A stretch of 64,000 nt of DNA, taken from NCBI RefSeq assembly GCF_000215995.1, contig NC_015680.1, positions 62,001 to 126,000 on the forward strand, read 5' to 3'. Below, one piece after another: positions 3,052-14,992 of the stretch (its first letter is position 1; every line of letters begins with the position of its first letter). The DNA is from Pyrococcus yayanosii CH1 (GTDB taxonomy: Archaea; Methanobacteriota_B; Thermococci; Thermococcales; Thermococcaceae). A program made the position numbers and the translations under genes. The notes beneath the pieces were generated by a model. It ran no database searches. It was not told the DNA's origin and saw only the letters and a program-made list of their open reading frames with translations.

Positions 3052-3180
3052 GTGGCCCGACTCCCGCCCTCTCCGCGGAATCGTGAAGCGGGGGTTCCGG
3101 TCGGGCCGACAGGGGATGACGAGCTTTTGCTTTGCCGATGGGTGATGAACACGCCCTTCGCCGACCCGTCATTTTGACAA
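3052..3180 (+). ncRNA. H/ACA guide sRNA with two hairpins
   Basis: A GC-rich intergenic stretch folds into two H/ACA units. Hairpin 1: lower stem GGCCCGAC (3054-3061) pairs with GTCGGGCC (3100-3107), an upper stem TCTCCGC/GCGGGGG closes a K-loop containing GTGA, and ACA sits at 3109-3111. Hairpin 2: lower stem GATGACG (3115-3121) pairs around CGTCAT (3167-3172) and extends by G-U pairs, the upper stem CGATGGG/CCCTTCG closes a loop with TGATGA, and ACA sits at 3177-3179. In both, ACA lies 15-17 nt after the upper stem, as the family requires. The opposite strand has no ACA after either stem. Such RNAs direct Cbf5-Nop10-Gar1-L7Ae pseudouridylation. The TATA element is weak (AT-rich 3018-3030), and targets were not identified. 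Confidence 0.75.
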
Positions 3181-13970: not shown

Positions 13971-14009
13971 TCCCATCCCAGAAGGAGTCACCAGAAGAGT
14001 TTTTAGGCT

Positions 14010-14224
14010 TTCTGTGGCCCGCCCGTAACACCCGCCCCCATCAACGCCCTCGGCTTCTTTGGGCGGGCTAACCCAGACGGGCCTGTGCCCGACCAGGGTT
14101 ACCCCCGGTCATCGTGCTCCGTGACGCGGAAGGCCCTCCCAGGGGGACCTCGCTTAGGCCGGGCTGTTGCCCCCGCGTCGCACCTGACCTCACAGCTCAG
14201 CCAGGCCCTCGCGTACGGGGGCAA
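14010..14224 (-). ncRNA. H/ACA guide sRNA with three hairpins; hairpin 3 predicted to target 23S rRNA helix 69
   Basis: A 215-nt, very GC-rich segment. Hairpin 1: GCCCCCG pairs with CGGGGGC, then ACA (complement of 14165-14167). Hairpin 2: GCCCGGCC pairs with GGTCGGGC, then ACA (14084-14086). Hairpin 3: GGCCCGTCT pairs with GGGCGGGCC, then ACA (14013-14015); its upper stem CCCGCCC/GGGCGGG carries a K-turn (AAAGAA opposite GTTGATG) capped by GCC-GAG-GGC. In hairpin 3 ACA is exactly 14 nt after the upper stem. Its pocket, left GGGTTA and right GTTAC, complements GUAAC-UN-UAACCC, the conserved loop of 23S helix 69 (E. coli U1915 equivalent). The promoter TATA is 25 nt upstream of the predicted 5' end. 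Three-unit H/ACA RNAs are known in Pyrococcus. Confidence 0.85.
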
Positions 14225-14242
14225 TAAGAAAATGGTGGCTTA

Positions 14243-14253
14243 GGTTTATAACC
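14243..14253 (-). promoter_or_regulatory. TATA box of the three-hairpin H/ACA RNA
   Basis: GGTTATAAACC on the reverse strand. Its centre is about 25 nt before the first base of hairpin 1, the spacing archaeal TBP/TFB promoters use. This fixes the 5' end of the RNA near 14224. Confidence 0.75.
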
Positions 14254-14452
14254 ATGACTGCTATTATTACCACGCTTATATTTAAGCTTATCCTCTATGG
14301 AAAGTTGGATTGGTAAATTGAAAAGAGTTAATTAAGAGCAATAGTAATCAAGATCCTGAAAAATTACAAACTAAATTCTGCTAGAGAAAAATTTATAAGT
14401 ATGTTATATGTTAGTAGCAATTAATACTGCAACTAGTATGGGGGATGCCAAA

Positions 14453-14992
14453 ATGGAAAAGAAAAAAATAGGGAGTGCCCTAATTGGATTGCTCTTGGTA
14501 GTAATGACAGCAACTAATGTTAGTGCAATAACAGTAGAAAAGAACATTGTTTTGCCTGAAAGGATAACCCCTGGAGTGAAGACTGAATACTGGACAATAG
14601 AGAGGATTACATTGTACACTATCAACTATGGCCCATGGCAAATCGCCGCCATAAATCATTGCAAAAGCCAAGATGCCACATGCAGTGTTTCAAAGACGGT
14701 TGAACATTGCATGTCTGTTTCAGTGTCTGGCAGTGTTAAGGTAGGAATTGAGTTAATAGAAGCGGAACTAGGAGCGACAATTGGAGCAACGTATTGTGAA
14801 AGCACGACATGCAGTGTTACATGCCATGGTAAAGATGCCGTTCTTGAATGGAGGTATGTAGAGCCTATAAAGGAAATAGTCCAGAGAAAACACATAGTGT
14901 ATCCTGATGGACATGAGGAATTGGGTGAAACAGCATCTGCATATGTAAAAATGAATGCTGCCCCTGAATGTCGTTCGTACTGCATCCCTTGA
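14453..14992 (+). CDS. Secreted cysteine-rich protein of unknown function
   Basis: A 179-aa protein. The start at 14453 (MEKKKIGSALIG) follows GGGGGATG; ATG at 14438 is the alternative. A signal peptide with core IGLLLVVMTATNVSA ends near residue 24. The mature part has cysteines in three clusters (HCKSQDATC, CESTTCSVTC, ECRSYC), fitting disulfides outside the cell. A central Ser/Val/Gly strand region (SVSVSGSVKVGIELIEAEL) resembles beta-rich secreted proteins. TATA AATTTATAAG is at 14390-14399. It is markedly AT-richer than its surroundings. No family is recognised. It is followed 19 nt later by another exported protein, so the two are probably one operon. Confidence 0.7.
   Translation: MEKKKIGSALIGLLLVVMTATNVSAITVEKNIVLPERITPGVKTEYWTIERITLYTINYGPWQIAAINHCKSQDATCSVSKTVEHCMSVSVSGSVKVGIELIEAELGATIGATYCESTTCSVTCHGKDAVLEWRYVEPIKEIVQRKHIVYPDGHEELGETASAYVKMNAAPECRSYCIP

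Follow-up and report, generated by a model that had tools for sequence, protein, structure and literature searches.

Eukaryotic box H/ACA RNAs have a two-hairpin architecture. Archaeal guides of the HgcG/Pab40/Pf7/Tko1 type, described from Pyrococcus and Thermococcus, carry three H/ACA hairpins, and in Pf7 each hairpin is able to guide one modification (PMC2584109). Both transcription and in-vitro modification have been demonstrated for the Pyrococcus abyssi member, Pab40 (PMC4652768, PMC6138745, PMC2584109). Its first hairpin, Pab40.1, targets position 2588 (PMC6138745, PMC4652768), and P. yayanosii has been included among the Pa40.1 relatives (PMC4652768). Pab40 has been linked with U2588, and Tko1, the homolog in T. 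kodakarensis, with U2592, a modification that requires Cbf5, Nop10 and Gar1 in vivo (PMC6138745). For the second hairpin, Pa40.2–L1932 is among the modelled P. abyssi guide–target pairs, drawn with a 10/6/8 fold (PMC4652768), and the third, Pa40.3, targets L2016 (PMC4652768). In earlier experiments cited by PMC2584109, Pab40 made pseudouridine 2016 in vitro (Haloarcula 1956, E. coli 1915) and not the equivalent of 1917.

Among other archaea, the third motif of Afu4 from Archaeoglobus fulgidus is related and guides the same helix 69 uridine (L1970), whereas its neighbouring motifs and their targets differ (PMC4652768); this likeness is drawn from the published description. Of the Haloferax volcanii hairpins HP1/HP2 (Hvo1/Hvo2), HP2 is the stem III homolog addressing helix 69 and HP1 is the stem II homolog targeting L2621 (E. 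coli 2586), but stem I is absent and a long spacer separates the hairpins (PMC2584109). In eukaryotes, U19/snR191 are H/ACA guides as well and act on the equivalent uridines of helix 69, differing in that one RNA serves the equivalents of both 1915 and 1917 (PMC2584109).

The locus described here lies on the minus strand of the window (the whole 64,000-nucleotide stretch of P. yayanosii DNA that was analysed) and is like the HgcG/Pab40/Pf7/Tko1 RNAs in its three H/ACA hairpins, their order, the pockets of hairpins 1 and 3 and the target in helix 69, an element of universal importance. The guide RNA is already catalogued (RF00064; HgcG = Pab40 = Pf7 = Tko1) and is not new; since the three hairpins, their targets and the in-vitro helix 69 modification have been published (PMC2584109, PMC4652768, PMC6138745), the finding as such is known. 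Nevertheless, this copy is the lowest-scoring of the eight found in Pyrococcus (228 versus 276–312 bits), carries UGG in place of the kink-turn UGA that most homologs have in hairpin 3, and differs from published Pab40 in that its middle stem of the published type, GUCACGG, is broken by two mismatches, while the comparison supports a middle fold other than that of Rfam.

Identity, conservation and first hairpin of the guide RNA

The covariance-model search proposed in the earlier note, which had read the region as a three-unit H/ACA guide RNA, returned a match to RF00064 (HgcG/Pab40/Pf7) at window 14008–14279 (minus strand), covering the full model (1–276) with 227.9 bits and an E-value of 3.2e-65; the gathering score, which is the curated cut-off, is 77 bits. 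The mature part occupies 14011–14223 (minus strand), begins at the position corresponding to the 5′ start that RNA-seq gave for Pab40 in P. abyssi (PMC4652768), and folds somewhat better than shuffled sequences (z = −2.7). Three hairpins follow one another on the minus strand at 14223–14168, 14164–14087 and 14083–14016, with lower stems of 9, 8 and 9 bp (G–U pairs counted) and an ACA directly after each, starting at 14167, 14086 and 14015, so that both the three units and the placement of the boxes after lower stems of 7–9 bp had been read correctly. The expectation of a blank region holds for protein-only annotation but not otherwise, as Rfam detects the RNA at once. The value of the guide RNA here is that an unaided reading of the sequence recovered a real RNA gene together with the right rRNA target.

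The RF00064 search found a single copy in the P. yayanosii genome and matched 88 of the 94 Thermococcales genomes searched, including 74/74 of those of good quality; one of the matches reproduces the published P. abyssi Pab40 coordinates exactly (382,332-604; PMC4652768). Weak second matches in about 15 Thermococcales genomes were considered as a possible HgcG paralog and rejected, all five that were examined being the known HgcE/Pab105. An alignment was made of 50 homologs (49 distinct) belonging to six genera. In this alignment the guide strands are fixed while the stems vary with compensation, and the arrangement UG(A/G) – 8 nt – 3′ guide strand – 14 nt – ANA recurs in all three hairpins of all 50 homologs. 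The kink-turn UGA is kept in 50/50 homologs in hairpin 1, 45/50 in hairpin 2 and 44/50 in hairpin 3.

Hairpin 1 (14168–14223, minus strand) has the lower stem UGCCCCCGU/GCGGGGGCA and the guide strands ACGCGAGG (14214–14207) and GCGAC (14181–14177). Its ACA box (14165–14167, minus strand) stands directly after the lower stem; all 50 homologs keep an ANA there, with unchanged spacing. All pockets were scored against the 633 scorable uridines of the organism's own 16S and 23S rRNA; 300 dinucleotide-shuffled rRNA sets served for comparison. The best site of hairpin 1, ranking first among the 633 uridines, was 23S U2601; 10/300 shuffles contained a site as good. Alignment to P. abyssi 23S equates U2601 with 2588 and U2029, discussed below, with 2016; the scan thus independently ranked first the published target of Pab40.1. 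All target sites discussed here are identical in 19 Thermococcales 23S genes.

The RNA is almost certainly the Pyrococcus HgcG/Pab40/Pf7 box H/ACA guide, with its own TATA promoter and three hairpins that direct Cbf5. For the P. yayanosii strain itself, we infer expression and rRNA modification from the sequence, the conservation of structure, the complementarity to rRNA and the presence of the partner proteins, its genome encoding Cbf5-type DKCLD, Nop10 and Gar1 domains. HgcG would be transcribed from its own TATA promoter, and each hairpin is predicted to bind L7Ae, Cbf5, Nop10 and Gar1. The pocket would grip rRNA by two short duplexes and present the uridine about 14 nt from the ACA to Cbf5, which would convert it to pseudouridine. 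Hairpin 3 would thereby act on helix 69 at U2029 (E. coli 1915) and hairpin 1 on U2601 (P. abyssi 2588); hairpin 2 would act on the published P. abyssi 1932 site or, in the fold favoured by the comparison, would present U2691 (E. coli 2586).

Fold and target of the middle hairpin

The middle hairpin (14087–14164, minus strand) has the lower stem GCCCGGCC/GGUCGGGC, and its ACA box (14084–14086, minus strand), conserved as ANA in 50/50 homologs, abuts hairpin 3. The assignment of its pocket, which the earlier note did not make, varies with the fold used, and the hairpin fits two sites. Covariation, RNAalifold, the target scan and the spacing seen in 50/50 homologs all bear on the choice. An alternative stem that Rfam does not draw, of the form CCCNCGG/CCGNGGG, shows pairing in 98.8% of alignment cells, with two-sided changes at 4 of its 7 pairs; sliding the partner strand lowered pairing to 37–48%, and 0/300 shuffles reached the observed level, figures to be read with the relatedness of the homologs in mind, which are not independent and whose relatedness the shuffles leave in. 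The two small stems that Rfam draws in hairpin 2 show pairing in 82% and 74% of cells and no two-sided change. The covariation is clearest in L059 and L066, two homologous loci in which 2 or 3 stem pairs have changed each with the stem left intact. Applied to the 37 distinct sequences, RNAalifold predicted the alternative stem unprompted, and the alternative fold was more stable in 33 of them; the four exceptions, by about 2–5 kcal/mol, are distinct Pyrococcus sequences that include the one studied here. Furthermore, the alternative fold places the conserved UGA directly above the stem, as in hairpins 1 and 3, whereas the Rfam fold buries it inside a helix. With the middle stem refolded, the spacing of hairpin 2 is the same as that of hairpins 1 and 3.

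In the window, the proposed GA stem would be formed by CCCCUGG (14145–14139) and CCGGGGG (14108–14102) on the minus strand, leaving a candidate pocket of ...GAGGUC (14151–14146) and AACCC(U) (14100–14095), the strands GAGGUC and AACCC being present in 50/50 homologs. The best site for hairpin 2 in the organism's own rRNA is U2691 (GGGUU-U-A-GACC), which, judged from the surrounding sequence, corresponds to P. abyssi 2678 and E. coli 2586, the position of pseudouridine 2621 in Haloarcula. Comparison across the 50 Thermococcales loci favours the alternative fold, whose predicted pocket matches U2691; the middle hairpin thus probably has another fold, and perhaps another target, than published. 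Going further, we tentatively suggest that in most Thermococcales the middle hairpin has the conventional layout of an H/ACA unit, that Rfam has missed its covarying GA stem, and that its conserved target is the E. coli 2586 equivalent, the 1932 site being a peculiarity of P. abyssi or of Pyrococcus.

It is possible, if somewhat doubtful, that the main target throughout the Thermococcales is instead the equivalent of P. abyssi U1932, here U1945, served by the large 5′ pocket of the fold given in Rfam and the literature. Pab40.2–L1932 is listed with the 10/6/8 fold (PMC4652768), P. abyssi pairs with UACUGGGG, the 3′ half of the 1932 site, over 8 positions with no mismatch, and the published type of fold is the more stable one, by the 2–5 kcal/mol given above, in the four distinct Pyrococcus middle hairpins. 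Yet this pairing is free of mismatches only in P. abyssi and is mismatched or lost in the other 36 distinct homologs. The stem it requires is the one with pairing in 74% of cells and no two-sided change, the figures for the alternative being 98.8% and 4 of 7 pairs, and the conserved UGA would lie within a helix instead of a kink-turn. In the scan, U1945 came only fourth for hairpin 2, and 240/300 shuffles did as well, so that by this score the site does not exceed chance. The target may have changed in the Pyrococcus lineage, or the RNA may use both folds.

The alternative middle fold was mentioned in 2008, and as an idea it is not new; what is added here is order-wide comparative support, for which we found no precedent in the openly readable literature. 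If the fold and target of the middle hairpin do differ from those published, the Rfam structure needs redrawing, and most Thermococcales should then carry the peptidyl-transferase pseudouridine of Haloarcula.

Two other proposals for the middle hairpin were set aside. Its invariant strand AGCGAGGU complements ACCUCGCU near P. abyssi pseudouridine 2585, with 8 pairs counted by eye, and no guide is known for that modification (PMC6138745). We dropped the idea that the middle hairpin guides this orphan site, as several bases stay unpaired in this register and the second strand fails to match. A second, literature-like stem of Thermococcus (UUCCGC/GCGGGAA with GUUA/UGAC) was also rejected, its first half being paired in 63% of cells and showing no covariation.

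Third hairpin and helix 69

Hairpin 3 (14016–14083, minus strand) has the lower stem GGCCCGUCU/GGGCGGGCC, followed by an ACA box (14013–14015, minus strand) that is conserved as ANA in 50/50 homologs. Its guide strands, GGGUUA (14074–14069) and GUUAC (14029–14025), are those first proposed from the sequence (GGGTTA/GTTAC), and each is retained in 49/50 homologs, while 7 of the 8 pairs of the upper stem show two-sided, compensating changes among the homologs. The best site, ranking first among the 633 uridines, is 23S U2029 in helix 69 (E. coli 1915), which pairs with the pocket through 5 + 6 Watson–Crick pairs and scores 27, against 16 for the runner-up; 0/300 shuffles reached this score. The earlier note had predicted complementarity to GUAAC-UN-UAACCC, and the motif GUAAC-U-A-UAACCC (GUAACUAUAACCC) indeed occurs once in the organism's own 23S gene, in helix 69 and at U2029 when numbered along the match to the 23S model. 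We also looked at the possibility that this 23S sequence does not pair with the pocket and found 11 Watson–Crick pairs. The predicted pseudouridine at the E. coli 1915 equivalent is thus supported by the scan and by the in-vitro product of the P. abyssi homolog.

It is highly improbable that the third pocket also serves E. coli 1917, the neighbouring uridine in helix 69. A Haloferax homolog has been proposed to serve both uridines through alternative folds (PMC2584109, PMC4652768); against this, the 1917 equivalent was not among the products of Pab40 in vitro (PMC2584109), and the 11-pair register found here is fixed on 1915.

In the kink-turn of this hairpin (14037–14042, minus strand), UGG stands where 44/50 homologs have UGA; UGG recurs in 5 other homologs of the 50. 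With UGG replacing UGA, binding of L7Ae to this hairpin is not certain.

Promoter and surroundings of the RNA gene

A TATA box (TTATAAA, 14251–14245, minus strand) begins 28 nt upstream of the RNA, in agreement with the promoter noticed at first reading. A TATA-like hexamer is present at about −25 to −30 in 47/50 of the homologous upstream regions, whose surroundings are otherwise divergent. Upstream, on the opposite strand, lies an ORF of 194 aa (window 14408–14992, plus strand) that has no Pfam or NCBIfam match.

Downstream and outside the RNA, a PIN-domain gene annotated as 'RNA ligase partner protein' (PF08745, TIGR03875; 13380–13973, minus strand) starts about 40 nt past the end of HgcG on the same strand. 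The gene is found downstream of HgcG in 8/8 Pyrococcus loci and was not recognised within 0.2–0.7 kb in the 42 other loci. As the adjacency is limited to the eight Pyrococcus loci, we rejected a functional link and conclude that the gene is no part of the function of the RNA. By our count, the published end of the P. abyssi transcript (382,622) falls approximately at the start codon of the PIN gene, so HgcG may be cut from a shared transcript. Although the RNA ends just ahead of the start codon of this gene, which follows it in all eight Pyrococcus loci, there is practically no chance that the region is merely a structured G+C-rich stretch or a leader of the PIN-domain gene with no guide function, a reading already refuted by comparative data, as the RNA occurs in other genera without an adjoining PIN gene and has in nearly all cases a TATA box of its own, its conservation falls on guide strands and ACA boxes, and the Rfam match is full-length.

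Outside the order, three genomes of sister families in the same class (L067, L068 and L069) gave weak RF00064 matches (E-values 7e-17 to 4e-8). The pocket motif of hairpin 3 is absent from these three, which have one hairpin with GCGAGG and a last hairpin with GUUAG; they are possibly diverged HgcG-like guides with another target. A scan of genome contigs for the hairpin 3 pattern was uninformative, with 2 of 8 matches in Thermococcus and the rest in unrelated bacteria.

The window holds another RNA gene, an Rfam match to snoR9 (RF00065) at 3053–3178 (plus strand) with 128.3 bits. In P. abyssi the 5′ end of the snoR9 transcript is formed by the H/ACA guide Pab21, and a C/D box RNA follows (PMC4652768). 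The sequence in the window is the same composite, with an H/ACA hairpin ending ...GGGCCGACA and then a C/D-like part.
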